A program made the position numbers and the translations under genes. From Buttiauxella gaviniae ATCC 51604 (lineage in GTDB: Bacteria; Pseudomonadota; Gammaproteobacteria; Enterobacterales; Enterobacteriaceae): DNA of 64,000 bases. Below, piece after piece: positions 28,071 through 56,177 of the stretch; positions within the stretch are counted from its first letter, which is position 1, and every line of letters begins with the position of its first letter. Under the pieces are notes generated by a model, which was given only the letters and a program-made list of their open reading frames with translations, was not told where the DNA came from and searched no databases. The DNA lies in assembly GCF_001654835.1 (NCBI RefSeq), contig NZ_LXEP01000026.1, forward strand, positions 124,001 to 188,000. The letters run 5' to 3'.

Positions 28071-29084
28071 ATGCAGCATTTCAAACATGTTTTGCCAAAA
28101 ATTTCGCTGGTTGCTACCGCCGTTGCGGCGACAATTTTACTGAGCGGATGTGGAGATGACGCAGCGCCAACAGGCCCTGTAGTCCTGAAAACAGCGTTTA
28201 ACCAGTCTGAAAACAACCCACAATACAAAGCATTAGTCTCTTTCAGCGATAAACTGGAAGCGGCGACTAATGGCCGCTACAAACTTGAAATTCACCCTAA
28301 CGAACTGTTAGGTGACCAGCGTGCTTCGCTGGAACTGGTTCAGTCTGGCGCGATTCAGATGGCGGTCGTCGCCAACCCACTGGTCGAAAACTTCAATAAA
28401 AACTTCTCTGTTCTGGCGATGCCGTACGTTTACGACAACCCGGAACATCAGCGCAAAGTGTTTACCTCTGGCGTGCTCGATAACCTGTTTGCTTCCACCA
28501 AAGGCACCGGTTTTGAAGTTATTACCGCGTACACAGCAGGCGCGCGAAGTATTTACACCAAAGGCGCCGCAGTCACCAGCCCGGCCGATATGCAGGGTAA
28601 AAAGATCCGTGTAATGCAGTCTGACACCATGATCAAAATGTTGTCTTGCATGGGCGGAACCGGTGTGCCGATGGGGCAAGGTGAAGTCTATTCAGCGATT
28701 CAGCAAGGCGTGCTGGATGGTGCTGAAAACAACGAGATCACTTATGCCGACCTGAAGCAGTACGAAGTTGCTCCGTATTTCTCAGCAACGCGTCATGTCA
28801 TGGTGGCTGATTTGCTAGTCGCTAATGAAAACTTCATCGCCAAGATGGATGAAAGCGACCGCGAGCTGTTCCGCAAACTGGCTAAAGAGAGTACCCAGAC
28901 TCAGTTTGAGCTGTGGGACAAAGCCCTTGATGGCGCACGCCAAACCGCGAAAGACAACGGCGCAGTCTTTACCGAAGTGGACATCAAACCATTCCAGGAA
29001 CGTTGCAAACCGCTGCAATCAGCCATGTTGACCACCCCGGAACAAAAAGCGCTGTACGAAAAAATTCGTGAGATGGCCGAGTAA
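28071..29084 (+). CDS. TRAP transporter substrate-binding protein (DctP family), predicted lipoprotein
   Basis: 337 residues. The N-terminus is a lipoprotein signal with lipobox LLSGC (Cys27), so the receptor should be membrane-anchored rather than free. This is unusual for TRAP receptors of Gram-negative bacteria. The mature part is a DctP fold; the conserved Arg region KIRVMQSDTMIKML and the AENNEITYADLKQYEVAPYFSATRH stretch belong to the carboxylate-binding cleft. It is first of three TRAP genes. The substrate is probably a carboxylate; malonate is a guess from position next to mdcR. Confidence 0.88.
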   Translation: MQHFKHVLPKISLVATAVAATILLSGCGDDAAPTGPVVLKTAFNQSENNPQYKALVSFSDKLEAATNGRYKLEIHPNELLGDQRASLELVQSGAIQMAVVANPLVENFNKNFSVLAMPYVYDNPEHQRKVFTSGVLDNLFASTKGTGFEVITAYTAGARSIYTKGAAVTSPADMQGKKIRVMQSDTMIKMLSCMGGTGVPMGQGEVYSAIQQGVLDGAENNEITYADLKQYEVAPYFSATRHVMVADLLVANENFIAKMDESDRELFRKLAKESTQTQFELWDKALDGARQTAKDNGAVFTEVDIKPFQERCKPLQSAMLTTPEQKALYEKIREMAE

Positions 29085-29131
29085 TAAGGTTTGAAGTTTG
29101 GGGGATCTTCGGGTCCCCCGTGGAGATAAAA

Positions 29132-29674
29132 ATGAAAGTTGCTCAATCCGCCCCCTCTACCGCTGTATCCAAATCTGATTTTTATTCGCTTGTCACACGA
29201 GTAAAACAGGCCGTGGATAAAGCTGCGTCTTATCTGTGTATTCTGATTGTTGGTTTAATGACTTTGTTGGTGACCTGGCAGGTTGCGTCGCGCTATTTGT
29301 TTAATAGCCCGAGTGCGGTCAGTGAAGTGCTGGCGCGTTATTTGTTTATCTGGCTGGTGCTGATTGGCGGGGCATATGTTTTTGGCCTGCGCGAGCACAT
29401 GGCTATTACGTTTATGCGCGATAAAATGCCGCGTAAATTGCGCCTTTCTCTGGAAATTGTTGGCGAGTTAGCCACTTCAGTATTTGCATTACTGGTGCTG
29501 ACTATCGGTGGTTATATCGGTATGAGCCGCCAGATGGCGCAGCTCGACTCCGCATTACAAATCCCTATCGGCATTATCTACATTGCGATTCCGCTGAGCG
29601 GTGCATTGACGCTGTTCTATTGTCTGTATAACCAATATGGGTTGTTCAGAAAGTTCTCTTCGAAACAAGATTGA
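29132..29674 (+). CDS. TRAP transporter small permease subunit (DctQ family)
   Basis: 180 residues with four transmembrane segments (first ~ILIVGLMTLLVTWQVASRYLF). The WQVASRY and EVLARYLFIWLVLIGGAY motifs are typical of DctQ. ATG at 29132 was preferred over GTG at 29120 because TGGAG sits eight bases upstream of the former. A GGGGGATCTTCGGGTCCCCC-type hairpin precedes it in the gap after the receptor gene and would favour higher receptor levels. Confidence 0.88.
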   Translation: MKVAQSAPSTAVSKSDFYSLVTRVKQAVDKAASYLCILIVGLMTLLVTWQVASRYLFNSPSAVSEVLARYLFIWLVLIGGAYVFGLREHMAITFMRDKMPRKLRLSLEIVGELATSVFALLVLTIGGYIGMSRQMAQLDSALQIPIGIIYIAIPLSGALTLFYCLYNQYGLFRKFSSKQD

Positions 29675-29686
29675 TTGGGTGTCGAT

Positions 29687-30994
29687 ATGGATATTGCAAT
29701 TATTGTTGCTCTGGTGATGTTTAGCGGCGTATTTATTCTGCTGCTAGCGGGAACGCCAATTAGTATTAGTATTGGGATCTCATCCTTCGCCGCGATGTGT
29801 CTTATTTTACCGTTCGATGGCGCGATATTAACCTCTGCCCAGCGCGTCTTTGTCGGCCTCGACTCCTTTGCCTTATTAGCCATTCCCTTCTTTATTCTGG
29901 CCGGGAATTTAATGAACAATGGCGGGATAGCCATTCGTTTAATTAACTGTGCAAAATTGATCAGTAATTTCCTGCCGGGGCCTCTGGCGCAAACCAACGT
30001 CGTCGCCAACATGCTGTTTGGCTCCATCAGTGGTTCAGGCGTGGCATCTGCGGCAGCGGTCGGTGGCATCATGTCGCCAATTCAGAAAAAAGAGCAGTAT
30101 GACCCGGCGTTTAGTGCCGCTGTGAATATCGCTTCTGCACCAACGGGTATGCTGATCCCACCTAGTAACTCTTTGATTGTTTATGCAACGGTTGCAGGCA
30201 GCGTGTCTATTTCCGCTCTGTTTATGGCGGGTTATGTGCCTGGCATTCTGTGGGGCCTGGGGGTGATGATTGTCGCCGGGGTTATTGCAAAACGCCGGGG
30301 TTATGTAGCCGACCGTTCTGCGGATAAAGGCAAAACGTTACGCATTCTGTTTGATGCAATTCCAAGCCTGATGATGATTGTTGTGGTTATCGGCGGCATT
30401 CTGGGGGGCGTATTTACCGCAACAGAAGCCTCGGCAATTGCGGTGGTTTATTCGCTGGTGCTCGGCGTTATTTACCGCAATATCAAAATGGATGATTTGC
30501 CGAAGATATTCCTCGCGACCGCGAAAATGACGGCGATTGTTATTTTCATGCTGGCGGCATCGTCGATTATGTCGTGGGTCATGGCGTTTACCAAAATCCC
30601 TGCGCTGATTGCCTCCGGTTTACTTTCTGCAACAGATAGCTTCATCGTTATTCTGCTGATTATGAACCTGGTATTACTGCTGGTGGGCACCTTTATGGAC
30701 CCAACACCTGCGGTATTAATCTTCACCCCAATTTTCCTGCCAATCTGCATGCAGTTTGGAATGGACCCGGTACATTTCGGTATCATGATGGTGTTCAACT
30801 TATCGCTTGGCACAATTACGCCGCCGGTAGGGCCAATATTATTTACCGGCTGTAAGGTGGGGGATATTAAGATTGAGCGCGTGATTAAACCGTTGCTGCC
30901 ATTCTTTGCGGTGATTGCGATTGTTCTGATGATGGTAACCTATTTACCGGCTATCACCATGGCACTGCCACAGAGCATGGGTCTGGTTAAATAG
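29687..30994 (+). CDS. TRAP transporter large permease subunit (DctM family)
   Basis: About 435 residues, twelve or so hydrophobic segments, typical DctM. It has the FVGLDSFALLAIPFFILAGNLM and SGSGVASAAAVGGIM motifs and the LGTITPPVGPILF stretch near the C-terminus. ATG at 29687 is taken as start; TTG at 29675 is a less likely alternative. It completes the sodium-coupled TRAP system. Confidence 0.9.
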   Translation: MDIAIIVALVMFSGVFILLLAGTPISISIGISSFAAMCLILPFDGAILTSAQRVFVGLDSFALLAIPFFILAGNLMNNGGIAIRLINCAKLISNFLPGPLAQTNVVANMLFGSISGSGVASAAAVGGIMSPIQKKEQYDPAFSAAVNIASAPTGMLIPPSNSLIVYATVAGSVSISALFMAGYVPGILWGLGVMIVAGVIAKRRGYVADRSADKGKTLRILFDAIPSLMMIVVVIGGILGGVFTATEASAIAVVYSLVLGVIYRNIKMDDLPKIFLATAKMTAIVIFMLAASSIMSWVMAFTKIPALIASGLLSATDSFIVILLIMNLVLLLVGTFMDPTPAVLIFTPIFLPICMQFGMDPVHFGIMMVFNLSLGTITPPVGPILFTGCKVGDIKIERVIKPLLPFFAVIAIVLMMVTYLPAITMALPQSMGLVK

Positions 30995-32381: not shown

Positions 32382-32397
32382 CGTGACTGTAATCACA
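32382..32397. promoter_or_regulatory. CRP-like site upstream of the PRD/SFCGS operon
   Basis: CGTGA-CTGTAA-TCACA: one perfect and one 4/5 half-site at the right 6-bp spacing, set in TAATG...CATTA. It is ~150 bp upstream of the GTG start of the PRD gene. Suggests catabolite control of the locus. Confidence 0.5.
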
Positions 32398-32549: not shown

Positions 32550-32885
32550 GTGAATAACGGAGCGGTAAAGGTTAATGACGCCGGAAGTACCGACGCCACA
32601 CAACTTACGGAGCAAGTGTTGGCGTTTATCAGAACGCTGCTGGAAGGCCGAAACATCACGCCAAACGCAGTTCAGGAACAGATGCTGACATCTCACGTTC
32701 GCGCCATGGCGCACCGGTCACTGACCGGCGAACCGTTGCCAGAAGTTGAAGAAAGCCTATTCGAGGAAATTTCTGATGACTCTCTGGAAATGGCAAAAGC
32801 AGTCGTGGAACAGTTTGGCAATTTGCCGGTTGAAGAGGCGTGGTTGCTGTCAGTGCATTTCGAAGTCGCGAAAGACAATCTTTGA
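32550..32885 (+). CDS. Stand-alone PRD-domain protein
   Basis: 111 residues, essentially one PTS regulation domain. The conserved histidines are visible in LTSHVRAMAHR (~residue 49) and LLSVHFEVAK (~103). There is no DNA- or RNA-binding domain. GTG at 32550 is preferred, with ACGAGG eight bases upstream; the frame is open further back but without a good site. A free PRD could be phosphorylated by HPr/EIIB-like proteins and bind the locus regulator. It is the first gene of the SFCGS-DUF4312-DUF4311-DUF4310 block, 17 bases before the next gene. Confidence 0.78.
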   Translation: MNNGAVKVNDAGSTDATQLTEQVLAFIRTLLEGRNITPNAVQEQMLTSHVRAMAHRSLTGEPLPEVEESLFEEISDDSLEMAKAVVEQFGNLPVEEAWLLSVHFEVAKDNL

Positions 32886-32902
32886 ATAATCAGGAGATTC
32901 AA

Positions 32903-33265
32903 ATGGAACAAATTACCGTAGTGATCGGCGACCGCCTGGGTAAAGGCCAGAAAGTGGCAGCAGGGATTGAGAAAGCAGGCGGCCGTGCCGTGGTTATTCC
33001 TGGTGTTGCCGCTGATATGAAACTTGGCGACGTGATGAAAGCCGAGAACGCCACATTCGGCATCTCTTTTTGTGGCAGCGGCGGCGCAGGTGCCATTACC
33101 GCGCAAACCAAACATGGTTACAAAGCCAAATACGGCATGCGTTCAGTTGAAGAGGGCGTCACCGCCATCAACGAAGGCAACAACGTGCTGGGCTTCGGCT
33201 TTATGGATAAAGAAGAGCTGGGCGAGCGCTTAGTTCTGGCCTGGGCTAAGAAGTACGGTAACTAA
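32903..33265 (+). CDS. Glycine-rich SFCGS-family protein, function unknown
   Basis: 120 residues, soluble. The centre reads GISFCGSGGAGAITAQTK, with Cys57 the only cysteine in the protein. The N-terminus (ITVVIGDRLGKGQKVAAGI) looks like an alpha/beta sheet start with a glycine loop. A lone cysteine in a glycine/serine loop recalls the phosphocysteine of PTS EIIB domains, but homology is not shown. It has a GGAGA ribosome-binding site and is two bases from the DUF4312 gene, always with the membrane pair downstream. Confidence 0.85.
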   Translation: MEQITVVIGDRLGKGQKVAAGIEKAGGRAVVIPGVAADMKLGDVMKAENATFGISFCGSGGAGAITAQTKHGYKAKYGMRSVEEGVTAINEGNNVLGFGFMDKEELGERLVLAWAKKYGN

Positions 33266-33267
33266 GT

Positions 33268-33564
33268 ATGAAAGAACACTTCTCCGAAACGGTGAGAGTG
33301 AAAGGTCGTGGCGACACTAAAGCCAAGGCCTTTGCTGATGCCCTGAATCATGTTCAGGGCTCGGTTATGAAGTCATCTCCCCACATTTTACTGCGTATTG
33401 AGCCACAGGATGTGCAGGTTGTTCAGGCGCGAGTACAGGTCAAGAAAGAGGCCTTTTTGTTCTTCTTTCTGAAACGTGAAAAACAGATGTTCAGCGTGGA
33501 GTTGGATGTTTCAGTCAATGTGACGGCCATCAATATGGACAAAGTAGACTTCATCCCCCAATAA
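33268..33564 (+). CDS. DUF4312-family protein, function unknown
   Basis: 98 residues, soluble, beta-rich. VKGRGDTKAKAFADALNHVQGSV is followed by amphipathic strands (HILLRIEPQDVQVVQARVQVKK) and a FLFFFLKREKQMF stretch that could touch the membrane. Histidines 4, 28 and 39 are present. It starts two bases after the SFCGS gene, so the two products are probably made in equal amounts. Confidence 0.83.
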   Translation: MKEHFSETVRVKGRGDTKAKAFADALNHVQGSVMKSSPHILLRIEPQDVQVVQARVQVKKEAFLFFFLKREKQMFSVELDVSVNVTAINMDKVDFIPQ

Positions 33565-33587
33565 AATCACACAGAAAGGACAGACAG

Positions 33588-34364
33588 ATGTTCTTAATTA
33601 TATTAATAAAATCGCTAATCATCGGCGGTCTGGTTGGCGTTGGAGTGGGCGCCGGGGCTGCACGTATGTTTCATGCGCCGACCACGCAAGGTATGGGCGC
33701 TTTTCGTACCCTCGGCGAGCTGAACTCCTGCGAAGGCGACCCGGCTTCACACTTCTCATTTGGTTTAGGCTTCTTCTTCAACGCCTGGGCATCGTCCGTT
33801 GCGGCGGGTGCTTTCACTCAGGACGTTGACCACCGCATTATCCCACACTGGGGTGCAGCTGCGCTGATGATGAAAAATCGCAACGTGGCTGAGACCCTGC
33901 ACGATCCGCGCAAGATGGCTGTCGCGTGCGGCATCATCGGCATGATTGTAGTGGCCTTCCTTAACACTACCGCGTCTGCTGTTCCCGCAGCATTACAGGT
34001 CACCGCAGTCAAAGTGCTGGTCCCTGCGGCGAACTTGCTGGTGACCATCATCATGCCAGTGATTTTCTGGCTGGCAGCGATTGATGCCGGTAAAAAATCA
34101 GGCTTCTGGGCGACTATTTTCGGTGGCTGTGCGCAACTGATTATGGGCAACGCCGTACCAGGCTTGGTGCTGGGCATCCTGATTGGTAAAGGCGTGGAAG
34201 AGAGCGGCTGGAACCACGTCACCAAAGTGATGATGGTGGCGATTATCGCGCTGTTTGTGCTGAGTGGCTTCTTCCGTGGCTTCGATATGAAGATGATCGA
34301 ATCCTTCCATCTGACCGTGCCGGACTGGCTCAGTCTGATCCATAACTCGATGAGCGGAAAATAA
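33588..34364 (+). CDS. DUF4311-family membrane protein, predicted permease subunit
   Basis: 258 residues with about six transmembrane segments (for example residues 3-24, 107-130, 140-163 and 215-232). A conserved-looking hydrophilic loop GELNSCEGDPASHFSFGLGFFF follows TM1, and there are small-residue-rich helices. The architecture resembles the EIIC/EIID pair of sugar permeases, but I see no known PTS motif. The ribosome-binding site is AAAGGA. Followed by the partner membrane protein after 11 bases. Confidence 0.84.
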   Translation: MFLIILIKSLIIGGLVGVGVGAGAARMFHAPTTQGMGAFRTLGELNSCEGDPASHFSFGLGFFFNAWASSVAAGAFTQDVDHRIIPHWGAAALMMKNRNVAETLHDPRKMAVACGIIGMIVVAFLNTTASAVPAALQVTAVKVLVPAANLLVTIIMPVIFWLAAIDAGKKSGFWATIFGGCAQLIMGNAVPGLVLGILIGKGVEESGWNHVTKVMMVAIIALFVLSGFFRGFDMKMIESFHLTVPDWLSLIHNSMSGK

Positions 34365-34375
34365 GGGAGCCTGTG

Positions 34376-35017
34376 ATGGAAACGAATAAAGGTTTTTGGT
34401 ACGCCGACTGGTCATTCCCGATTTTCGTTGGCCTGCTTTCTTCCGGCGTGTTCGCCGGGACACACATGTATTACCTCTACGGCATTGGCGCATTCAACGA
34501 AGTGGCGTTTGTTTCCATGCTGCGTGCCGGGATTGATACCGGTGTGTATGGCGCAGTCGCCGCGTTTGGTGCCAGCTTCCTGTTTGCCCGCATCATTGAA
34601 GGTTCGTTGGTCGGGATTCTGGATATCGGCGGGGCGATTCAAACCGGCGTAGGTCTTGGCGTTCCGGCGCTGTTACTTGGCGCGGGCATTATCTTCCCGG
34701 TCGCAAACTTTGCGGCATCGCTGGTGACGGGGCTGGTGATTGGCCTGGCGATTGGTTATGTGATTATTCTGGCGCGTAAATTCACCGTCAACCAGAGCAA
34801 CTCAACCTACGGGGCAGACGTCATGATGGGCGCGGGTAACGCATCCGGCCGCTTCCTTGGCCCGTTGATTATCCTCAGCGCAATGACCGCTTCTATTCCG
34901 ATTGGTATCGGATCCTTGATTGGTTCTCTGCTGTTTTATCTGTGGAACAAGCCGATTACCGGCGGTGCGATTCTTGGCGCAATGCTGTTTGGGGCATTCT
35001 TCCCGATTGCTTTGTAG
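34376..35017 (+). CDS. DUF4310-family membrane protein, predicted permease subunit
   Basis: 213 residues with six or seven transmembrane segments, opening NKGFWYADWSFPIFVGLLSS. Glycine-rich helices (VGILDIGGAIQTGVGLGVPA, GADVMMGAGNASGRFLGP) may line a path. ATG at 34376 has GGGAG six bases upstream and is preferred over GTG at 34373. It ends the membrane block. A 117-bp gap with the right inverted repeat follows before the catabolic genes. Confidence 0.84.
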   Translation: METNKGFWYADWSFPIFVGLLSSGVFAGTHMYYLYGIGAFNEVAFVSMLRAGIDTGVYGAVAAFGASFLFARIIEGSLVGILDIGGAIQTGVGLGVPALLLGAGIIFPVANFAASLVTGLVIGLAIGYVIILARKFTVNQSNSTYGADVMMGAGNASGRFLGPLIILSAMTASIPIGIGSLIGSLLFYLWNKPITGGAILGAMLFGAFFPIAL

Positions 35018-35033
35018 GCCGAAGCGGGGGCTG

Positions 35034-35080
35034 GAGATACCCGGGGCGATTTCAGGGCTTGGCATCCCTCCGGGAACCAA
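35034..35080 (-). repeat. 47-bp inverted repeat, right copy
   Basis: Reverse complement matches 32202-32248 at 41 of 47 positions. It lies between the DUF4310 gene and the amidohydrolase gene. GGGAA CCAA TTCCC inside it forms a compact hairpin that is also possible in the left copy. Confidence 0.75.
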
Positions 35081-35134
35081 TTCCCTGAACTTCCCCTAAT
35101 AATCGGCTACGGGATCTTTCTGAAGGAGAAAACC

Positions 35135-36268
35135 ATGTTCGACTTAATCCTGCGCAACGCGTGTCTGGTGGATGACACCGTTATCGACATCGCGTTGAAG
35201 GACGGAAAAATTGCCGCACTTGGCGAAATTACGGGTGAGGCGAAAGAAGTGCGCCAGCTCAATGGCGAATATTATGTCAGTGCAGGCTGGATTGATTCTC
35301 ACGTCCACTGCTACCAAAAATCCCCGATTTATCACGACGACCCTGACAGCATCGGTATAAATACTGGCGTCACTACGGTTGTTGATGCCGGGAGCACTGG
35401 TGCTGATGATATTGATGAGTTTTACGAGCTGACTCGCAAAGCGACGACGGATGTTTACGCGTTACTGAACATTTCCCGCGTTGGGCTGATTGCGCAGAAC
35501 GAACTGTCGGATATGGCGAATATCGACAAAGTCGCCGTGCGTGACGCGGTAAAGCGCCATCCTGGTTTTATCGTCGGCATCAAAGCGCGCATGAGCAGCA
35601 GCGTCGTCGGTGCCAACGGCATTAAACCACTGGAGCGAGCGAAAGAAATCCAGCGCGAAAACGGTGATTTGCCGCTGATGGTACACATTGGTAATAACCC
35701 GCCAGACCTCGACGAAATTGCCGATTTGCTGACAACTGGCGACATCATTACCCACTGCTACAACGGCAAACCGAACCGCATTCTGACGCCTGCCGGTGAA
35801 TTGCGAGCGTCCATTTCCAACGCTATACAACGTGGCGTACGTCTCGATGTGGGACACGGCTCCGCCAGTTTCAGCTTTGAAGTGGCGAAAATCGCCATCA
35901 GCAAAGGGATTCTGCCACACACCATTAGCTCCGATATTTACTGCCGCAACCGCATTAACGGCCCGGTGCATAGCCTTGGCGTGGTGATGTCTAAATTCCT
36001 CTCCATTGGTATGTCACTTCCACAAGTAATTGATTGTGTTACCGCTCATGCCGCCGATGGTTTACGCCTGGGCAGTAAAGGGCGCTTGTCCGTTGGCCTT
36101 GATGGCGACCTGACCATTTTTACTCAACGCCGCCAGCCGACGGTCTTTACCGACTCAGAAAGCCAGACTCTCCAGGGTGAACAACTGCTGGTGGCACTTG
36201 CCGCCGTTCGCGCCGGGAAGTGGTTTGTTACCGAACAAGGGAAGGAAGAACATGTCTTCGATTTATGA
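35135..36268 (+). CDS. Amidohydrolase/deacetylase-family metallohydrolase
   Basis: 377 residues, TIM-barrel amidohydrolase with a binuclear metal site. HVH is at residues 56-58, the probable carboxylated Lys150 in GIKARMS, His184 in MVHIG, His207 in THCYNG and Asp267 in SSDIY. It should remove an acyl group or open a ring on a substrate taken up by the preceding system. It starts after AAGGAGAA. Its 3' end overlaps the ammonia-lyase gene by 17 bases. Confidence 0.87.
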   Translation: MFDLILRNACLVDDTVIDIALKDGKIAALGEITGEAKEVRQLNGEYYVSAGWIDSHVHCYQKSPIYHDDPDSIGINTGVTTVVDAGSTGADDIDEFYELTRKATTDVYALLNISRVGLIAQNELSDMANIDKVAVRDAVKRHPGFIVGIKARMSSSVVGANGIKPLERAKEIQRENGDLPLMVHIGNNPPDLDEIADLLTTGDIITHCYNGKPNRILTPAGELRASISNAIQRGVRLDVGHGSASFSFEVAKIAISKGILPHTISSDIYCRNRINGPVHSLGVVMSKFLSIGMSLPQVIDCVTAHAADGLRLGSKGRLSVGLDGDLTIFTQRRQPTVFTDSESQTLQGEQLLVALAAVRAGKWFVTEQGKEEHVFDL

Positions 36269-37370
36269 GAAATACAATTTAAAACAAGTCATTAATGCCT
36301 CCGGCCGCATGACGGCGCTCGGTGTTTCTACCCCGCGCCCGGAAGTGGTCGAAGCTGTGACCACTGGCATGAATCATTACTTTGAAATGAAAGACCTGGT
36401 GAACAAAACCGGGGAATACATTGCTAAATTGCTCGATGTAGAAGGCGCGACAGTTGTCTCTTGTGCATCAGCGGGGATCGCGCAATCCGTGGCGGCTGTA
36501 CTGGTAAAAGACAACGCCTGGCTGATTGAAAACTTGCACGCCGCACCCCTTCAAAACAACGAGATCGTGCTGCCGAAAGGCCACAACGTGAACTTCGGCG
36601 CACCGGTTGGCACCATGGTGAATCTCGGTGGCGGCAAAGTGGTTGAAGCGGGTTACGCCAACGAATGTTCAGCCGACCAACTGGCAGCGGCAATTTCCCC
36701 GCGCACCGCCGCGATTCTGTATATCAAATCGCACCACTCGGTACAGAAAAGCATGCTTAGCGTTGAGCAGGCCGTGGTCGTGGCGCGCAAACATAACCTG
36801 CCGCTGATTGTTGATGCTGCCGCAGAAGAAGATTTGCAGTGCTACTACCGTGCGGGTGCGGATCTGGTGATTTACAGCGGCGCGAAAGCGATTGAAGGGC
36901 CAACCAGCGGTCTGGTGATTGGCAAAACGCAGTACGTTGAATGGGTAAAACTCCAAACCGGCGGTATTGGCCGTGCCATGAAAGTCGGCAAAGAGGGCAT
37001 TCTCGGCCTGACCTGCGCCATCGAACACTATTTAACGGCAGCCAAAGCAAGCGGCGCACAGATGGTCGAAAAAATGACGCCGTTTATCGAGAGCCTCAAC
37101 ACCCTTGATGGCGTGAGTGCACGTGTAGTGTGGGATGCTGCAGGGCGTGATATTGCACGTACCGAGATTAAGTTCGATGAAGCAGTTATCGGCATCAGCA
37201 CCAGCGAGCTGGTGAGCGCGTTGAAACAGGGCGATTATGCGATTTTCTTCCGTGGCTACAAAGCCAACGAAGGGATTATCGAAGCCGATGTGCGTAGCGT
37301 CAGCCCGCAGCAGTTAGAGATCATTTATCACTGCATTAACGCACTGGTAAGCAAGGAGAAGCAGGTATGA
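36252..37370 (+). CDS. DgaE-type pyridoxal-phosphate ammonia-lyase
   Basis: 372 residues of the SelA-like fold-type I family, close in kind to DgaE, D-glucosaminate-6-phosphate ammonia-lyase of Salmonella. PLP lysine is Lys212 in YSGAKAIEGPTSG; the aspartate of the cofactor site is in LIVDAAAEED. The expected product is 2-keto-3-deoxy-6-phosphogluconate plus ammonia. ATG at 36252 has AAGGAAG upstream; the longer frame from 36177 lies inside the amidohydrolase gene. It overlaps the aldolase gene by four bases. Confidence 0.87.
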   Translation: MSSIYEKYNLKQVINASGRMTALGVSTPRPEVVEAVTTGMNHYFEMKDLVNKTGEYIAKLLDVEGATVVSCASAGIAQSVAAVLVKDNAWLIENLHAAPLQNNEIVLPKGHNVNFGAPVGTMVNLGGGKVVEAGYANECSADQLAAAISPRTAAILYIKSHHSVQKSMLSVEQAVVVARKHNLPLIVDAAAEEDLQCYYRAGADLVIYSGAKAIEGPTSGLVIGKTQYVEWVKLQTGGIGRAMKVGKEGILGLTCAIEHYLTAAKASGAQMVEKMTPFIESLNTLDGVSARVVWDAAGRDIARTEIKFDEAVIGISTSELVSALKQGDYAIFFRGYKANEGIIEADVRSVSPQQLEIIYHCINALVSKEKQV

Positions 37371-38107
37371 AACTGACCCCGAATTTTTACCGCGACCGTG
37401 CATGCCTGAACGTGCTGGCGGGCTCGAAAGAGAACGCGAAAGAGATTTATGACGCCGCAGAAGGCCATGTGTTGGTCGGCGTGCTTTCTAAAAATTACCC
37501 GGATGTGGCAACTGCCGTGGCGGATATGCGCGAGTATGCGGCGCTTATCGACAATGCGTTGTCCGTTGGCCTCGGCGCGGGTGACCCAAACCAGTCGGCA
37601 ATGGTGAGTGAAATCTCCCGCCATGTGCAGCCGCAGCATGTAAACCAGGTGTTTACCGGGGTGGGTGCAAGCCGCGCGTTGCTTGGGCAAAATGAAAGCG
37701 TGGTCAATGGCCTGGTTTCTCCAACGGGAATGGTAGGGATGGTGAAAATATCCACCGGTCCGCTAAGCTCAGTCTCCTCTGACGGGATTGTGCCGGTAGA
37801 TACCGCTATCGCGTTGCTTAAAGATATGGGCGGCAGCTCAATCAAATATTTCCCGATGGATGGCCTGAAATACCGTGATGAGTTCCGCGCGGTAGCGCTG
37901 GCTTGTGCAAAACACGATTTCTGGCTGGAGCCGACTGGTGGGATCGATCTTGAGAACTACGAAGAAATCCTGAAGATCGCGCTGGATGCGGGAGTGAGTA
38001 AGATCATTCCGCATATTTACAGCTCAATTATTGATAAAGCGAGCGGTAATACGCGTCCGGAAGATGTGCGTACTTTGCTGGACATGACGAAGAAGTTAGT
38101 TGGCTAA
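37367..38107 (+). CDS. DgaF-type 2-dehydro-3-deoxy-phosphogluconate aldolase
   Basis: 246 residues. The KDGP aldolase of the DgaF type, which splits 2-keto-3-deoxy-6-phosphogluconate to pyruvate and glyceraldehyde 3-phosphate. The active-site region with lysine is SIKYFPMDGLKYRDEF; LEPTGGIDLENYEEIL and IIPHIYSSIIDKASG are further conserved stretches. ATGA overlap with the ammonia-lyase gene shows tight coupling of the two steps. Confidence 0.87.
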   Translation: MKLTPNFYRDRACLNVLAGSKENAKEIYDAAEGHVLVGVLSKNYPDVATAVADMREYAALIDNALSVGLGAGDPNQSAMVSEISRHVQPQHVNQVFTGVGASRALLGQNESVVNGLVSPTGMVGMVKISTGPLSSVSSDGIVPVDTAIALLKDMGGSSIKYFPMDGLKYRDEFRAVALACAKHDFWLEPTGGIDLENYEEILKIALDAGVSKIIPHIYSSIIDKASGNTRPEDVRTLLDMTKKLVG

Positions 38108-38132
38108 AACCTGATAACAATGAGGATCATCA

Positions 38133-39239
38133 ATGCCCGCAACACAAACGCAATTCGCCTGGGTAGGTACCTACAACCCAAATGGTGAAGGAATTTACCG
38201 TTTTCATGTCGATGCCGAAACCGGTGCGCTGACCCGCAAAACGCTGGTCAGTGAACTGCCAAATGCCGCGCAGCTCACCGCCTCGAAAGAGGGTAAAACG
38301 CTGTATGTGGCATGCGAAACTGAAAACGGTGTGATTGCAGCATTGCGTGTTGGGGATGATGGCAATCTTACTGAACTTAATCAGGTTTCATCGGGCGGAG
38401 CGGGGGCGGTCTATCTCACGCTCACGCCGAACGAGCGGCATTTGCTGGTGGCGAATTACGGCAGCGGTTCCGTTGCCGTATTGCCCGTGAAGGGCGATGG
38501 CAACTTGGGCCAGGCCACGGATATTCAACAGGATACGGGGCCTACTGGCGCCAAAAAACCAGAAGCCGCCGTGGAAGGCAGTTTTGCGGCCAGCGGCCAC
38601 AGTGGCCCGCATGCACATATGATCGCCGCCGATCCCAGTGGTAAATTCGTCTTTACTACCGATCTTGGACTCGATCGGATCTATCAATATCGTTTCGATG
38701 AAACCCACGGCAAACTCACGCCAAACGATCCTCCCTTCATTGAGTCTTCATCGAAAGGATCCGGTCCGCGCCACTTTGTGTTCACCCCACAAGGGGATGG
38801 CCTGTGGCTGATTAACGAAGAGGCTTCTACGCTTACCCACTACCAACTTGATGTAGTCAAAGGAATCCTAACCGAGGGCGAGAGCATTTCCTCACTACCT
38901 AAGGGGTTCAAAGGAACCAACTTTGCTGCGGGTCTGGTGCTAAGTAAAGACGGGAAACAGCTATATGTGGCGAACCGTTTGCACAACAGCATCGGCCATT
39001 TCAGCGTTGCCGCGAATGGCAGGCTGGAGCTTGTGGAGCACGTCTGGACGCGGGGTGATTACCCGCGCACGCTAACGCTCGGCCATAATGAAAATTATCT
39101 GTACGTGATGAATCAGCGCAGCGATAACATCGCGCGTTTTTGCGTGGCGCAGCCGACTGGAAAACTGAATTTTGTTGAGGATTACATTGCGGTTGGCAGC
39201 CCGTCACAGATGGTTTTGACAGGTGCTGCGCCCGATTAA
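38133..39239 (+). CDS. Lactonase-family seven-bladed beta-propeller protein (YbhE-like)
   Basis: 368 residues with repeated blade motifs (GKTLYVACETENG, ERHLLVANYGSGSVAVLP, GKFVFTTDLGLDRIYQYRF, GKQLYVANRLHNSIGHFSV, ENYLYVMNQRSDNIARF). Same family as 6-phosphogluconolactonase Pgl/YbhE, cytoplasmic as there is no signal peptide. In this operon it probably opens a sugar lactone before or after deacylation. Ribosome-binding site GAGGAT. Confidence 0.85.
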   Translation: MPATQTQFAWVGTYNPNGEGIYRFHVDAETGALTRKTLVSELPNAAQLTASKEGKTLYVACETENGVIAALRVGDDGNLTELNQVSSGGAGAVYLTLTPNERHLLVANYGSGSVAVLPVKGDGNLGQATDIQQDTGPTGAKKPEAAVEGSFAASGHSGPHAHMIAADPSGKFVFTTDLGLDRIYQYRFDETHGKLTPNDPPFIESSSKGSGPRHFVFTPQGDGLWLINEEASTLTHYQLDVVKGILTEGESISSLPKGFKGTNFAAGLVLSKDGKQLYVANRLHNSIGHFSVAANGRLELVEHVWTRGDYPRTLTLGHNENYLYVMNQRSDNIARFCVAQPTGKLNFVEDYIAVGSPSQMVLTGAAPD

Positions 39240-39254
39240 CGAAAGGAAACGGCA

Positions 39255-41165
39255 GTGAGATTCCCAAACCAACGTCTGGCCCAACTGTTTGAAATGCTGC
39301 AAAACGAGACGCTGCTCCAGGATGAACTGGCGCGGCGATTATCAGTTTCTACCCGCACCGTGCGCGCGGATATCACTGCTTTAAATGCGCTGATGGTCGG
39401 GCATGGCGCGCAGTTTGTCCTCAATCGCGGAGCGGGGTATCAGCTCAATATTGCAGATCCGGCGCTGTATGAAGAACTCCAGCAGCAGCCTTCACGCCAG
39501 CTGCGTATTCCGCGCAACTCACCGGAGCGTGTGCACTATCTGGTAGTTCGTTTTCTGACGTCTGCCTTCTCATTAAAACTCGAGGATCTGGCCGAGGAGT
39601 GGTTTGTTAGCCGTGCGACATTGCAAAGCGATATGGCTGAGGTTCGTGATTGGCTGGCGCGCTACAACCTGACGATTGAAACCCGCCCGCGCCACGGAAT
39701 GAAGCTGTTTGGCAGTGAAATGTCGGTGCGTGCTTGTCTGACCGATCTGCTTTGGAAACTCACGCAGGAAGATTGCGAAAATCCACTGCTGACTGAAGAA
39801 GTGCTCAATGCAGGCGTGCCAGAACAACTGGCGGCAGAACTGCACAATTGTTTTACGCGCTGCCGTATCCGCCTGACTGACGAAGGTGAACAGTTTATCC
39901 GTTTATATTGCGCCGTTGCGGTTCGCCGTATCAGTGAAGGTTATCCGCTGCCGGAATTTAGCGCCGACAATGTAGACGAAGCTGTGCGTGAAGCCGCAAA
40001 ACAAATCACCGTACTGTTACAGAAGCTTGCCGGTAAAGCGCTTTCCGAGGCGGAAGAACAATGGCTGCAAGTTCATATTGCCTCGCGCCAGGTGCAAGCA
40101 GTGGCTGCGAGCGCTATCAGTGCTGACGACGATGAAGCGCTGGTGAATTACATTCTGAGCTTTATCAACAACAACTATAACTACAACCTACTAACCGATA
40201 AGCAGCTTCATGCTGATTTGCTCACGCATATCAAAACTATGATTACCCGTGTGCGCTATCAGATAAATATTCCTAATCCCCTGCTAGGCAATATTAAACA
40301 GCACTACCCGATGGCTTATGACATGACGCTTGCGGCGGTGTCGAGCTGGGGGAAATACACGCCTTATGTGATTAGCGAAAACGAAATTGGTTTCCTGGTG
40401 CTGCATATTGGTGTGGGGCTTGAGCGGCACTACAACATTGGTTATCAGCGCCATCCACGCGTGCTGTTGGTTTGTGATACCGGGAACTCAACGGTACGCA
40501 TGATTCAGGCGATGCTGCTGCGTAAATATCCCCAAATTGAGGTCACGCGGATCATTTCCCTGCGAGATTATGAACAACTCGACGGCGTGGAAGAGGATTT
40601 TGTTATTTCCACGGCGCGCATTAGCGATAAACAAAAGCCCACTGTGGTGGTGGCGCCATTCCCGACCGAGTACCAACTTGAGCAGTTGGGCAAACTGGTG
40701 CTGGTGGACCGCACGCGCCCATACATGCTGGAAAAATTCTTTGATGCCAGCCATTTCCGCGTTGTTGATGAGCCGATGACTCAGCAGGAGTTGTTCAGCA
40801 CGCTTTGCCAGCAGCTTGAACGAGAAGGCAATGTTGCTGCTGATTTTTATCCGTCTGTGGTCGAGCGCGAGGCTATTGTCAGCACCGTGCTGGGTGAGGG
40901 GATTGCACTGCCTCACTCATTGGGGCTGATGGCGAACAAAACCGTGGTGTACACCGTGCTTGCACCACAAGGTATTCGCTGGGGAGATGAGACGGCGCAC
41001 GTCATCTTCCTGCTAGCAATCAGCAAAAGTGAGTATGAAGAGGCGATGGCGATTTACGATTTATTCGTGACTTTCCTGCGCGAAAGGGCGATGCCGCGTT
41101 TACGCGATAGTAAGAATTTTGAGGAGTTTAAAGCAGTAGCAATGGATTGTTTGAGCAGATTTTAA
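39255..41165 (+). CDS. BglG/MtlR-family PTS-responsive transcription activator
   Basis: 636 residues. Domains in order: N-terminal winged HTH (~1-60, LSVSTRTVRADITALNALM), a second HTH-like region with PRD1 (~90-280), PRD2 (~290-395), an EIIB-Gat-like domain with Cys407 in LLVCDTGNST, and an EIIA-Fru-like domain with His554 in EGIALPHSLG. Such activators are switched by phosphoryl transfer from HPr and from the cognate EIIB. GTG start with AAGGAAA upstream. It is the last gene of the locus and the only regulator with a DNA-binding domain. Confidence 0.87.
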   Translation: MRFPNQRLAQLFEMLQNETLLQDELARRLSVSTRTVRADITALNALMVGHGAQFVLNRGAGYQLNIADPALYEELQQQPSRQLRIPRNSPERVHYLVVRFLTSAFSLKLEDLAEEWFVSRATLQSDMAEVRDWLARYNLTIETRPRHGMKLFGSEMSVRACLTDLLWKLTQEDCENPLLTEEVLNAGVPEQLAAELHNCFTRCRIRLTDEGEQFIRLYCAVAVRRISEGYPLPEFSADNVDEAVREAAKQITVLLQKLAGKALSEAEEQWLQVHIASRQVQAVAASAISADDDEALVNYILSFINNNYNYNLLTDKQLHADLLTHIKTMITRVRYQINIPNPLLGNIKQHYPMAYDMTLAAVSSWGKYTPYVISENEIGFLVLHIGVGLERHYNIGYQRHPRVLLVCDTGNSTVRMIQAMLLRKYPQIEVTRIISLRDYEQLDGVEEDFVISTARISDKQKPTVVVAPFPTEYQLEQLGKLVLVDRTRPYMLEKFFDASHFRVVDEPMTQQELFSTLCQQLEREGNVAADFYPSVVEREAIVSTVLGEGIALPHSLGLMANKTVVYTVLAPQGIRWGDETAHVIFLLAISKSEYEEAMAIYDLFVTFLRERAMPRLRDSKNFEEFKAVAMDCLSRF

Positions 41166-49423: not shown

Positions 49424-50578
49424 TCAGCCTTTCCACGGATGAATAACGACACCTTTCACAACACGGTTTACCGTGCCGCTTGCGGAAGGGGTATCAGGGG
49501 TAATGCCCGCTTTGACGGATTCCGTCAGCGCGAAAATCTGCGCATACATCAGGAAACAGAAAGCCTGTTCAACGTCGATGAAATCGCGGGAAGGTGGCAG
49601 CCAGATATGTGGCCCCGACTCGACTTCCGGGCAAGGTGACGAGCAGATAGCAACGACGCGCAGGGCCTGTTGGTCGCGGCGCAACTCAGCCAGTAAATCA
49701 AGGTCGTACTGGCGGGTATACGGGTGGCTTGAAATCATGACCACAACTAACGTTTCGTTGTTAACCAGTGATTTAGGGCCGTGACGGAACCCGGTTGGGG
49801 AGTCATAAAATGCCGCCAATTTCCCTGCAGTGAGTTCCAGAACTTTCAGTGCAGATTCACGCGCAACACCTTGCAAGCCGCCGCTGCCGAGGTAGACGAC
49901 ACGTTTGAAAGGCAAATCACCGAACACGCTTTCGCTTAAGTCACCTTGTGAAGCAATGATTTCTTCGCAGTGCTTAGCCACATCCTGGAAAGTGCTGCTG
50001 TTGATAACATCCGGTGCAAACACGGCCAGGCAGCTTGCCATCATGGTGGTGATACTGCTGGTCATGGCGAAGCCACGATCGTGCGTTTCCGGTGGCATCA
50101 GCAGCGCATGTGAGTTACCGCTGGTCGCGGCGTTCTGGTAAAGGCTGCCGGCTTCATTGCAGGTAATGATCAGGTGATAGCAATCCTTCACCACCTGGTT
50201 GACTAAATCGACCGCCGCCACACTTTCCGGACTGTTGCCGGAGCGGGCAAAAGAAACCAGTAGCGTCGGTTCCTGCTCGGATAAGTAATCAAGCGGGTTG
50301 GTGACAAGGTCGGTGGTCGGTACTGCAACAAAGTTTTTCCCGGTGTGGCGCGATAGCCACGGCGTAATAATATCGCCAATAAATGCGGAGGTTCCTGCAC
50401 CCGTCAGGATAATTTTTAGCGAGGTGTTTTGCAGCAAAGGATCAAGGAATGCGTTGATGCTGCTACGTTGATTACCGATATTTTTTAACGATCGGATCCA
50501 GCTTTCCGGCTGTTGGCGGATCTCTTTTTCAGTCCAGGTTAATGTGCCGGAAAGACAGGCTGATTGGGTTTCGCTCAT
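49424..50578 (-). CDS. agaS: AgaS, galactosamine-6-phosphate deaminase/isomerase
   Basis: 384 residues with two SIS domains: LTGAGTSAFIGDIITPWL...SFARSGNSPESVAAV and VYLGSGGLQGVARESALKVLEL. It converts galactosamine 6-phosphate to tagatose 6-phosphate and ammonia. Own promoter region upstream with AgaR-type sites; followed by kbaY and the glycosidase gene. The separate AgaI found in E. coli is not present here, which fits AgaS being the functional deaminase. Confidence 0.93.
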   Translation of the reverse strand: MSETQSACLSGTLTWTEKEIRQQPESWIRSLKNIGNQRSSINAFLDPLLQNTSLKIILTGAGTSAFIGDIITPWLSRHTGKNFVAVPTTDLVTNPLDYLSEQEPTLLVSFARSGNSPESVAAVDLVNQVVKDCYHLIITCNEAGSLYQNAATSGNSHALLMPPETHDRGFAMTSSITTMMASCLAVFAPDVINSSTFQDVAKHCEEIIASQGDLSESVFGDLPFKRVVYLGSGGLQGVARESALKVLELTAGKLAAFYDSPTGFRHGPKSLVNNETLVVVMISSHPYTRQYDLDLLAELRRDQQALRVVAICSSPCPEVESGPHIWLPPSRDFIDVEQAFCFLMYAQIFALTESVKAGITPDTPSASGTVNRVVKGVVIHPWKG

Positions 50579-50635
50579 TACTCAGTCCTTAGCAGTGCAA
50601 GATCATCGGAAGTAGCACAAAGCAGTACAGGACAA

Positions 50636-50702
50636 TCTTTCGTTTTGTTTCATTTACTCAACTTCATGCTTAAATAAAATCTATAGAAAAGAAAACGAAA
50701 GG
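50636..50702. promoter_or_regulatory. AgaR-type operator sites in the agaS promoter region
   Basis: TCTTTCGTTTTGTTTCATTT at 50636-50655 and, inverted, AGAAAAGAAAACGAAAGG at 50685-50702. They fit the E. coli AgaR pattern of TTTCRTTT repeats. Further CGAAA-rich copies at 50717-50734 and 50815-50834 lie in the same 303-bp gap between agaA and agaS; no gene is seen there. Confidence 0.7.
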
Positions 50703-50881
50703 TCAATGTAAGAAAAACAATAAAACGAAAAATGTGATCCGGAAAACGATCTTTTTTAGTTATTTTATTGATTTAAATGATTATTTTTAAATAATGGATA
50801 GTTGGGGTGATTTTAAACGAAAGGAAAAGAAAGGTCTGTCGCGGGGCAGGCGACAGACAAAAGTGAGAAGCAACGAAAGTA

Positions 50882-52015
50882 CTACAGGGGGAGAACCTGG
50901 CCATTAATCCAGATATTTTGAAGACCTAACTGGGAATTAAGCGCAATCATATTGGCGCGTTTTCCCACCACCAGCGAACCTAGATCGTTATCCAAACCGA
51001 GCATTTTTGCGGGGTGCAGCGACGCCATATGAATGGCATCTTCGGCAGAAACGCCCACGTCATTCACCAGGTTTCGCACCGCGGCATCAAGCGAAAGCGT
51101 ACTTCCCGCAAGCCCTCCGCTTTCAGTGCGTACGATCCCCTCACGCATTGTCACCGGGTATCCGCAAATCGAGTAGTCGCCATCAGGCATACCTGCTGCA
51201 CTCATGGCATCGGTTATTAGCAAAACGCGAGGTTTCGCGCAGCTACAACAAATATTCATGACCGCAGGGTGAACGTGATGCCCGTCGGCAATCAGTTCCA
51301 GCCAGGCCCGTTTATCGCTTAACCCGGCTCCGACCATACCAGGGTTACGGTGATGCAAGCCTGTCATGCCGTTAAAGCAGTGCACCAGCCCGTCGGCCCC
51401 GGCATCAAATGCCTCAAGGGTTTGCTCGTAACTGGCGGCACTGTGGCCAAGCATGACCCGTATATCCCGGTTTTTAAGGTGCTTAATTGCTTCGAGTGCT
51501 TCTGGTTTTTCAGGTGCCAGTGCTACCACTCGTAAGGTGTTTTGCGACACGGCGATTAGCCTGTCCAACTCGGCAATATTCAGCTCGCGGAACAATTCTG
51601 GCGGATGAGCGCCTTTATTGAGCGGCGTAAAGTATGGCCCTTCGAGATAACTGCCCAGCACGGTTGAACCAGGCCCGCCGAGATAAAAGCGCTCTGCGAT
51701 CCGCCGCAACGCGCTTTCAATGTTGGCAAGCGGTGCTGTGACGGTGGTGGGCAGCCAGCCGCCCACACCTTCGCGTGCCTTGTGCATCGCAAGCCGTGCA
51801 AGGACGCCAGGATCGTCGTCCATCACATCAACCCCGTCGCCGCCGTGAACGTGAATATCAATGTACGCCGGGCACAACAGTTCAGCATCACGCGCCATCG
51901 TTCCCGCAGGAATGGGTTCGATGGCGACAATCGTTTCGTTATCAATACGTAACTGGTGATCGTCCAGCCAGCCTTGTTCGGTGAGAACGCGCCTGGCTCT
52001 CAGTAGCCTGGTCAT
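50882..52015 (-). CDS. agaA: AgaA, N-acetylgalactosamine-6-phosphate deacetylase
   Basis: 377 residues, NagA-like amidohydrolase. Metal and substrate motifs are DIHVHGGDGVDVMDD (residues ~52-66), EGPYF, LGHSAASY, HCFNGMTGLHHRNPG and LITDAMSAAG. It makes galactosamine 6-phosphate and acetate. Its start overlaps agaF by four bases. Confidence 0.94.
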   Translation of the reverse strand: MTRLLRARRVLTEQGWLDDHQLRIDNETIVAIEPIPAGTMARDAELLCPAYIDIHVHGGDGVDVMDDDPGVLARLAMHKAREGVGGWLPTTVTAPLANIESALRRIAERFYLGGPGSTVLGSYLEGPYFTPLNKGAHPPELFRELNIAELDRLIAVSQNTLRVVALAPEKPEALEAIKHLKNRDIRVMLGHSAASYEQTLEAFDAGADGLVHCFNGMTGLHHRNPGMVGAGLSDKRAWLELIADGHHVHPAVMNICCSCAKPRVLLITDAMSAAGMPDGDYSICGYPVTMREGIVRTESGGLAGSTLSLDAAVRNLVNDVGVSAEDAIHMASLHPAKMLGLDNDLGSLVVGKRANMIALNSQLGLQNIWINGQVLPL

Positions 52016-52446
52016 ATTCCTTCCTCGACCGCCTCTGCTTCGCGATAACGCCCCATTTCATCGACCAGGCTGGTTAACCCGCGATGGCCGCATTCCAGCG
52101 CCTGAAGGCGGAACTCTTTACTGCTCAGACCGTCGCGTTCCAGCACCATTTCCAGCAGCAGTTGCAGGTTGATACCGGTGATGACTTCGCGCCCAGGCTG
52201 CTCTAACGCCATGGTTGAAGCAACGCGGAAGGGTGTGCCGCCAAGTAAATCAGTTAAAAACACCAGCCCTTCACTTTCGTCTAATGCGCTAATGGCTGTC
52301 TCAAACTGTGACGTGAGCAATGCCGTTGAAGACGTTTCGGGGAAATCAATGGCGATAAACTGCTCTTGTTCACCCAGGATCTGCTTCATCGCTTTTTCAA
52401 GACCGGTGGCAAAGCCACCGTGACCGCTAAGAATAATGCTTAACAT
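52012..52446 (-). CDS. agaF: AgaF, PTS EIIA component for N-acetylgalactosamine/galactosamine
   Basis: 144 residues, mannose-family EIIA. The phosphorylated histidine is His9 in IILSGHGGFATGLEKA. The FLTDLLGGTPFRVAS stretch is the dimer/active-site region. Follows agaE on the minus strand and overlaps agaA. Confidence 0.93.
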   Translation of the reverse strand: MLSIILSGHGGFATGLEKAMKQILGEQEQFIAIDFPETSSTALLTSQFETAISALDESEGLVFLTDLLGGTPFRVASTMALEQPGREVITGINLQLLLEMVLERDGLSSKEFRLQALECGHRGLTSLVDEMGRYREAEAVEEGI

Positions 52447-52475
52447 ATTGTTTTATCTCGCTTACAGGATGCCAC

Positions 52476-53351
52476 TTACAGGAAGTGGGCAAACTTCCCA
52501 ACAACACCCAGAACGACGGTGATACCGATAAGGCGCAACGGGCTCCAGCCACGACGCACTAACGCGTACATGCACAAGGTATAAACCAGTGGTAAAAAGG
52601 CCGGCATCAGCTTGTCGATAACGTCCGTTTGCAGTTTCACCACCGCATCACCCGCTGTGATTTCCAACGTAGTGGACAGGCGAACGTAAGTTGCAACCAG
52701 CGCGCCAATCACCGTCATCCCAACAATAGACGCGGCATGACCGACTTTGCGAGTGTTGGCTTTGATTAGCGGGATGGCGGCCACACCCATGCGGTAAGCG
52801 TAATGCGCAAGACCGAAACGCAGGCCGAGATGCACGACGTTAAACAGCACGATGAAGATAACCGCGCCGAGTATTGAACCTTGTAAGGCAAGGCTCGCCC
52901 CGATACCGCCGCAGATAGGTAACAAGGTCAGCCAGAACATCGCATCGCCAATCCCTCCCAGCGGTGCACCCACGGCAATTTTCGTGCTCTGAATGCTGTT
53001 CACATCCTGCTTTGAGCGTTCCATCGCCAAAATAATGCCGATAACAAAGGTCACAAGGAAAGGGTGAGTATTGAAGAACCCCATGTGGCCTTTCATGGCA
53101 CGCGCCAGGTCGCTTTTATTGGTATGGATTTTTTTGAGTGCGGGTAGCAGGCCATATAGCCAACCGGACCCCTGCATACGTTCATAGTTGAATGATGCTT
53201 GTAATAGCATGGAGCGCCATGCCACACGATTGATGTCTTTTCTGGTTAACTCTACACCGATGCTCTGGTCTTCATAGATGTTGTCGTTGCCGTTAGTCAG
53301 GGAGGTTTCCGTAACGTCTGTATCTGGCAAAGTCTGGATATTAGATGCCAT
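52476..53351 (-). CDS. agaE: AgaE, PTS EIID component
   Basis: 291 residues, mannose-family EIID. Contains GVELTRKDINRVAWRSMLLQASFNYERMQ at the N-terminus, MKGHMGFFNTHPFL, the conserved APLGGIGDAMFWL loop and several C-terminal membrane helices. Start at MASNIQTLPD; the frame open to 53417 lies in agaW. It forms the channel with AgaW. Confidence 0.93.
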   Translation of the reverse strand: MASNIQTLPDTDVTETSLTNGNDNIYEDQSIGVELTRKDINRVAWRSMLLQASFNYERMQGSGWLYGLLPALKKIHTNKSDLARAMKGHMGFFNTHPFLVTFVIGIILAMERSKQDVNSIQSTKIAVGAPLGGIGDAMFWLTLLPICGGIGASLALQGSILGAVIFIVLFNVVHLGLRFGLAHYAYRMGVAAIPLIKANTRKVGHAASIVGMTVIGALVATYVRLSTTLEITAGDAVVKLQTDVIDKLMPAFLPLVYTLCMYALVRRGWSPLRLIGITVVLGVVGKFAHFL

Positions 53352-54123: not shown

Positions 54124-54133
54124 AGAAAATACC

Positions 54134-54607: not shown

Positions 54608-54633
54608 GTTGTTTTCCTTTTATTATCATTGTG

Positions 54634-55926: not shown

Positions 55927-55958
55927 TTTCCTCTCCGTATGGGTGGGGTGTTAGTTTA

Positions 55959-56016
55959 TCTTTCGGTTTGTTTCATTTAATAGTGGTGTATCGTGCGATA
56001 AAAACAAAACGAAAGA
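55959..56016. promoter_or_regulatory. AgaR-type operators of the kbaZ promoter
   Basis: TCTTTCGGTTTGTTTCATTT at 55959-55978 and the inverted AAAACAAAACGAAAGA at 56001-56016. The two copies face each other across 22 bp, as in the divergent agaZ-agaR region of E. coli. Confidence 0.75.
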
Positions 56017-56030
56017 TAATAGAATTGAGA

Positions 56031-56158: not shown

Positions 56159-56177
56159 TTTTATGAAAGGATCATTT

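Follow-up and report, generated by a model that had tools for sequence, protein, structure and literature searches.

Which compound is broken down, and how does it enter the cell, in a bacterial locus that joins enzymes of the Salmonella dga type to four protein families of no known function (SFCGS, DUF4312, DUF4311 and DUF4310)? The locus lies in Buttiauxella gaviniae ATCC 51604 (assembly GCF_001654835.1, contig NZ_LXEP01000026.1, positions 124,001-188,000 of the forward strand), in an analyzed stretch of 64,000 nucleotides that we call the window and to which all coordinates refer. We propose, with a probability of about 0.5, that it is an operon under CRP control for the catabolism of an N-acylated 2-amino-2-deoxyaldonate, which would enter through a new uptake system; the leading candidate for the substrate is N-acetyl-D-glucosaminate or an epimer of it. 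DUF4311 and DUF4310 would form the membrane part, with SFCGS and DUF4312 as soluble partners. Judging from their families, an amidohydrolase would then strip off the acyl group, a DgaE-family pyridoxal phosphate (PLP) ammonia-lyase would release ammonia to leave 2-keto-3-deoxyaldonate (6-phosphate), and a 2-keto-3-deoxy-6-phosphogluconate (KDGP) aldolase would produce pyruvate and glyceraldehyde 3-phosphate, while an optional lactonase may open the lactone form. A standalone PRD protein and a PRD/EIIA activator would couple the operon to phosphorylation by the phosphotransferase system (PTS). If true, the proposal assigns a role to the four families within a defined pathway; it also points to a connection with the uncharacterized yhf operon of Escherichia coli.

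The ten genes span 32550..41165, all co-directional on the + strand. Pfam and NCBIfam matches together with the sequence itself confirm what a sequence-only reading of the window had described, namely ten named families on one strand with short gaps:

32383..32396, no strand: putative CRP-type site, a match to the pattern GTGA-N6-TCAC upstream of the block
32550..32885, + strand: standalone PRD protein, TIGR03582; GTG start; no DNA-binding domain found
32903..33265, + strand: SFCGS protein, PF14272; Cys57 in ISFCGSGGAG; RpiB/LacAB-like below threshold
33268..33564, + strand: DUF4312 protein, PF14189; small and soluble
33588..34364, + strand: DUF4311, PF14188; polytopic membrane protein with 6 hydrophobic segments in a simple scan
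34376..35017, + strand: DUF4310, PF14187; polytopic membrane protein with 5 hydrophobic segments in a simple scan
35135..36268, + strand: cog3964-type amidohydrolase/deacetylase, TIGR03583; 563.3 bits against a cut-off of 432.15
36252..37370, + strand: DgaE-family PLP ammonia-lyase, TIGR01437; 599.3 bits against a cut-off of 385.3
37367..38107, + strand: KDGP aldolase, PF07071, DgaF equivalog NF047796; 393.7 bits against a cut-off of 300
38133..39239, + strand: seven-bladed propeller lactonase, PF10282 by Pfam match; optional member
39255..41165, + strand: transcriptional activator with HTH_11, Mga, two PRD stretches and PTS_EIIA_2

The gene cluster itself is not new, since NCBIfam already records it as a 'conserved hypothetical' set (EF_0829-EF_0839 and AHA_3910-3917). 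Each conserved member passes its model, and the model names seen give no function. Within the literature library searched we found no functional study of DUF4310, DUF4311, DUF4312, SFCGS, STM4440-4445 or EF0830-EF0839, nor of yhfT/U/S, yhfY, DUF2620, the YhfT family, TIGR03580, or N-acetylglucosaminate in connection with the PTS.

To describe how constant the block is, we relied on a DUF4310 scan of 84,980 species genomes, which returned 468 relatives; the 80 loci analyzed here are the best 80 of these 468, and all come from Enterobacterales. The order PRD-SFCGS-DUF4312-DUF4311-DUF4310-amidohydrolase-DgaE-family lyase-aldolase is constant and complete in every one of them, on a single strand, and the seven intergenic gaps between the PRD gene and the aldolase range from -17 to +156 bp. 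This interval leaves no space for a kinase or a second transporter in any of the 80 loci, and it holds no mannose-type PTS permease genes. The activator follows in 78 loci, and the remaining two (L022 and L078) end at a contig boundary. The lactonase is found in 55 loci, L022 and L078 being the two interrupted by a contig end among the 25 without it; this distribution lends no support to the lactonase as a required step, as had been suggested from the sequence alone. In 20 further loci, taken from the 69 DUF4310-positive Enterobacteriaceae genomes described below and mostly from the low-scoring end, the genes from PRD to aldolase and the activator are present in 18. The exceptions, L133, which shows no aldolase, and L144, with broken genes in an assembly that is 49% complete, both keep the DgaE-family gene. 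In the loci covered, the four proteins therefore co-occur constantly with DgaE/DgaF-type genes, which the neighborhood survey proposed with the first reading was meant to establish (80 out of 80 and 18 out of 20 loci), and they are not mostly apart from them; twelve loci from two of the genome scans were too short for the lyase to be visible. Three of the four proteins assigned to uptake are also the best-conserved members, with a median identity of 93% for SFCGS, 91% for DUF4311 and 92% for DUF4310, compared to 85% for the lyase and 77% for the amidohydrolase.

DUF4310 was detected in 12 of 398 genomes sampled across the phylum, all 12 within Enterobacteriaceae. A sample of 149 genomes from this family contained it in 69 cases, and none of the 14 control genomes, E. 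coli among them, had it. Scans of viral contigs with DUF4310 and DUF4311 returned no relatives. Further occurrences came from collections of plasmids and phages: Enterococcus, Bartonella, Klebsiella, Salmonella, Aeromonas and also records labeled Listeria phage, which are probably host DNA. Outside Enterobacterales, the complete block occurs in an Enterococcus faecalis plasmid record (L013, with the aldolase as two open reading frames), on two Bartonella plasmids (L014 and L125) and in one record labeled Listeria phage (L104). In one Aeromonas caviae record (L016:11935-12546) a single open reading frame runs from the beginning of DUF4310 directly into the last part of the aldolase, so that most of DUF4310, the amidohydrolase and the lyase are absent. 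Four phage-collection records (L104, L105, L114 and L150) resemble bacterial host DNA, with catabolic operons and no annotated phage genes.

The core block encodes no membrane proteins besides DUF4311 and DUF4310, which makes uptake a reasonable reading, and from the sequence evidence the four proteins are likely an uptake system. They might instead form a membrane enzyme or a sensor complex, with the transporter encoded elsewhere, and the likeness of SFCGS to a sugar-phosphate isomerase points that way. We consider this quite unlikely, given that the block contains no other transporter gene on two Bartonella plasmids or in L104. The reading as an uptake system had been worded as a replacement of the PTS permease, which is too loose: Salmonella Infantis SARB27 has this block plus a dga-type operon with a mannose-type PTS, so the two systems are parallel loci.

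The substrate is suggested by the enzymes. In Salmonella, the dga pathway (DgaABCDEF) uses a mannose-type PTS for D-glucosaminate (PMC9529869). The Buttiauxella locus shares with the dga operon, as seen in Salmonella, a DgaE-family lyase, a DgaF-type aldolase and PTS-linked regulation. It differs in having no EIIA, EIIB, EIIC or EIID genes, in the four unknown proteins and the amidohydrolase, and in a lyase that scores under the DgaE equivalog cut-off. The names DgaE and DgaF thus hold in part: the aldolase passes NF047796, whereas the lyase reaches 377 bits on NF047797, whose cut-off is 600, and is for this reason better called a DgaE-family paralog. Solved relatives of the amidohydrolase (8wzy, 2ics and 2ogj) are filed as dihydroorotase or adenine deaminase. 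Two related cog3964 enzymes, Atu3266 and Oant2987, reportedly hydrolyze acetyl-(R)-mandelate (Ornelas 2013). An N-acyl 2-amino-2-deoxyaldonate would fit the succession of deacylation, ammonia elimination of the D-amino-acid type and KDGP cleavage. The amidohydrolase, the DgaE-family lyase and the KDGP aldolase hence lend partial support to the N-acylated amino-sugar acid that had been proposed, and the earlier pathway reading as a whole is largely supported. EF0839 and EF2975 have been put forward before as possible players in amino-sugar use (PMC7701990).

A natural source of such an acid is known. N-acetylglucosaminate (GlcNAc1A) arises from chitin cleaved by lytic polysaccharide monooxygenases (LPMOs) and is degraded in Pseudoalteromonas by the Ong pathway (PMC9537276, PMC12017989). 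The logic is shared, with deacylation followed by PLP-dependent deamination to 2-keto-3-deoxygluconate (KDG) or KDGP. The families of the window differ throughout from those of the Ong pathway, which has the D-aminoacylase-type OngB, the fold-type III PLP enzyme OngC, an SSS (sodium/solute symporter) transporter and a clustered KdgK. Two Aeromonas strains have LPMO, KdgK and KdgA homologs and no clear OngB or OngC, and other deacetylases or deaminases have been considered possible for GlcNAc1A in them (PMC11653859). The block is a candidate source of the two activities for this gap, as the AHA_3910-3917 names and L016 indicate that Aeromonas has the block or remnants of it.

The CRP-type pattern GTGA-N6-TCAC occurs within the tested 350 bp upstream of the block in 43 of the 80 loci; its density in the loci themselves predicts 0.019 per 350 bp. 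In Salmonella the block genes bear the locus tags STM4440-4443 and STM4447, and STM4441-2 are listed among crp-regulated genes (PMC11000858). The first PRD histidine of the standalone PRD protein is invariant in 20 out of 20 aligned rows; the second occurs in all ten block-type rows, and the ten rows of YhfY, its counterpart in E. coli, do not have it at the aligned position. The start of the PRD gene is most likely the GTG at 32550. The activator had been described as a PRD/EIIB/EIIA protein, of which the helix-turn-helix, PRD and EIIA domains are matched, while no EIIB model is; its VCDTGNST stretch resembles an EIIB cysteine loop. On two Bartonella plasmids a gene annotated ptsP comes after the block, and in L014 Pfam resolves it into HPr and enzyme I domains. 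This HPr-enzyme I neighbor, the PRD/EIIA activator and the conserved PRD histidine all indicate that the system depends in some way on PTS phosphorylation, be it of the substrate or of the regulators. That the substrate is phosphorylated during uptake is a sizeable possibility, somewhat short of an even chance.

Several observations weigh against our proposal. The Bartonella HPr-enzyme I gene may serve the regulators only. KdgK is found above cut-off elsewhere in the B. gaviniae genome, and a late-phosphorylation route is therefore possible. The arginines of the lyase count in favor of the proposal but do not prove a phosphorylated substrate: manual docking in the Salmonella enzyme placed the substrate phosphate near Arg-301, Arg-332 and Arg-346 (PMC9529869), and all three are retained in 85 of 85 block-linked loci, along with the PLP lysine (85/85), His-163 (85/85) and His-162 (84/85; Salmonella numbering). 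The lyase of the window has every one of these residues. Arg-346 is replaced by Cys in two lyase relatives linked to ATP-binding cassette (ABC) transporters, in Rhizobium and Aminobacter, and a haloarchaeal relative has none of the three. We dropped the cluster as proof, as the lyase of L150 also keeps all three; this record, labeled Listeria phage, encodes at 390-6824 an EIIC, a MupG-like protein, an amidohydrolase, a DgaE-family lyase, an aldolase and a KDG-kinase-like protein, and DUF4310 was not found in its 7.9 kb. Oxidized chitin as the source was likewise rejected. Of the 69 genomes that have DUF4310, 14 carry LPMO_10, as do 13 of the 80 that lack it (Fisher P-value 0.53), a comparison in which the 80 negative genomes include reduced ones of endosymbiont size and both lists are assumed to stem from the same 149 genomes, and the B. 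gaviniae genome has no LPMO_10. Finally, the AlphaFold models of DUF4311 and DUF4310, built on alignments of close relatives only, are uninformative (mean pLDDT 41.5 and 41.3).

In another scheme, a plain, non-phosphorylating transporter would deliver the acylated acid in unphosphorylated form, the enzymes would deacylate and deaminate it to KDG, KDGP would be formed by a KDG kinase whose gene lies elsewhere, and the PTS would only set the regulators. We regard this as a serious if tentative alternative. Apart from the KdgK encoded elsewhere in the genome, it draws on L150 and L013, where the same three enzymes are combined with a KDG-kinase-like gene, and on the Ong pathway, which runs the same chemistry with no early phosphorylation (PMC9537276). 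On the other side, both Bartonella plasmids carry HPr-enzyme I, and a PfkB search over the whole of both gave no match; no sugar kinase appears among their listed genes, which are part of the annotation. Moreover, the kinase gene of L013 and L150 accompanies a lactose/cellobiose-family EIIC and a MupG-like gene and could reflect a disaccharide phosphorylated on its other sugar. All three genes lie within the block in the E. faecalis record, where the kinase-like gene would belong to a disaccharide module. An Aminobacter plasmid (L148:1916-11058) carries an ABC transporter, a cog3964-type amidohydrolase, RidA and a DgaE-like PLP enzyme, that is, the same two enzymes with a different transporter.

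DUF4311 and DUF4310 could also be very distant relatives of mannose-type EIIC and EIID, making the system a divergent member of that PTS family. Their position in the pathway is that of Salmonella dgaC and dgaD, they are likewise two membrane proteins of similar size, and the regulators are PTS-linked. The kinship of the four proteins to EIIB, EIIC and EIID that had been suspected found no sequence, profile or structure match. Neither DUF4311 nor DUF4310 matches EIIC or EIID in Pfam or NCBIfam up to an E-value of 10, neither has a relative among solved structures, shallow profile comparisons gave no signal, and SFCGS and DUF4312 show no match to EIIB in Pfam or NCBIfam up to the same E-value. 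When compared with EIIC and EIID profiles, 10 to 58 of 150 permutations scored as high as the membrane pair. This negative is weak because the known pair EIIC-EIID, used as positive control, fails the same comparison (39 of 150). Overall, we judge kinship with the mannose-type permeases improbable.

It is quite possible that the uptake part represents a new class. SFCGS scores 13.7 bits against LacAB_rpiB PF02502 (cut-off 24.7, E-value 0.062), matches the ribose-5-phosphate isomerase model TIGR02133 at 0.0036 and the RpiB model NF004051 at 0.032, both far under cut-off, and has a single PDB match, RpiB 2vvr, at 0.29. Its CGSG aligns to the CGTG motif of the RpiB/LacAB family, while all matches stay below curated cut-offs. 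The position of the RpiB active-site histidine, which is mutated in 2vvr, aligns to Asn in SFCGS. Chance-level matches have equally small E-values (E. faecalis SFCGS with Cecropin, 0.0032; SFCGS of the window with methanogenesis marker 12, 0.02), so the likeness rests on the agreement in placement and on the shared motif rather than on any single E-value. An RpiB/LacAB-like SFCGS is thus a good lead and not proof. DUF4312 had no informative relative in Pfam, NCBIfam or a further search.

The same lead connects the block to the yhf operon. SFCGS matches DUF2620, the family of YhfU, at an E-value of 0.23 (0.034 when the SFCGS of E. faecalis is used) and the YhfU profile at 0.0022, with 1 of 150 permuted profiles equally high; YhfU itself is weakly similar to LacAB_rpiB (0.081), and a Cys is invariant in 16 of 16 aligned SFCGS/YhfU rows. 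YhfY matches TIGR03582 at 8.9e-5 (22.8 bits, cut-off 69.35; profile comparison probability 93.5). PRD, DUF2620 and YhfT occur together in yhf-type loci of B. gaviniae (L098:3484-11008, contig C54) and Cetobacterium (L113), which also hold a gene of the phosphotriesterase type and two genes for PLP enzymes. In L098 the relative order PRD-DUF2620-YhfT mirrors PRD-SFCGS-membrane pair. The E. coli operon (YhfY-YhfU-YhfT) thus shares with the block a standalone PRD protein, an RpiB-like small protein, a polytopic membrane protein and genes for PLP enzymes and a metal-dependent hydrolase; it differs in a single membrane protein of 434 residues instead of two, in its other enzymes, and in that DUF4312 was not seen. 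We hold with moderate confidence that, in their soluble parts, the block and yhf form two branches of a single type of system.

A common ancestry of the membrane parts can be suggested with low confidence. The joined DUF4311 and DUF4310 profile scores above all 150 class-preserving permutations against YhfT (33.9 compared to a mean of 17.6); singly, DUF4310 exceeds 148 and DUF4311 98 of 150 permuted profiles. The signal is confined to residues 4-61 of DUF4310, and the match, to the middle of YhfT, is weak. Three other candidates were rejected: a by-eye likeness between the N-termini of DUF4311 (F28-H29) and YhfT (26 of 100 permuted profiles as high), a likeness between the C-terminal halves (56 of 100), and the G308 match to YhfT (E-value 8.2e-4), which we attribute to chance because nothing in the 16 kb examined there corresponds to the block or to yhf. 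The boldest form of our proposal, that Cys57 of an RpiB-fold SFCGS carries the phosphoryl group, that SFCGS with DUF4312, DUF4311 and DUF4310 constitutes a new class of PTS permease, and that YhfU and YhfT of E. coli form a second branch with another substrate, appears unlikely.

A few observations concern the surroundings of the block. The DUF4310 protein of the window shares 100% identity with its counterparts in Buttiauxella brennerae and B. massiliensis. Upstream of the block, at 28071-30994, three genes read like a tripartite ATP-independent periplasmic (TRAP) transporter, with a binding protein and two membrane subunits. On the - strand, at 49424-56987, mannose-type PTS genes and an amidohydrolase resemble an aga-type amino-sugar operon, whose EIID (52476-53417) has EIIC- and EIIB-like neighbors. 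The Bartonella plasmids L124 and L125, of about 55 kb, carry a type VI secretion cluster in addition to the block, and their replication and partition genes form an inverted duplication.

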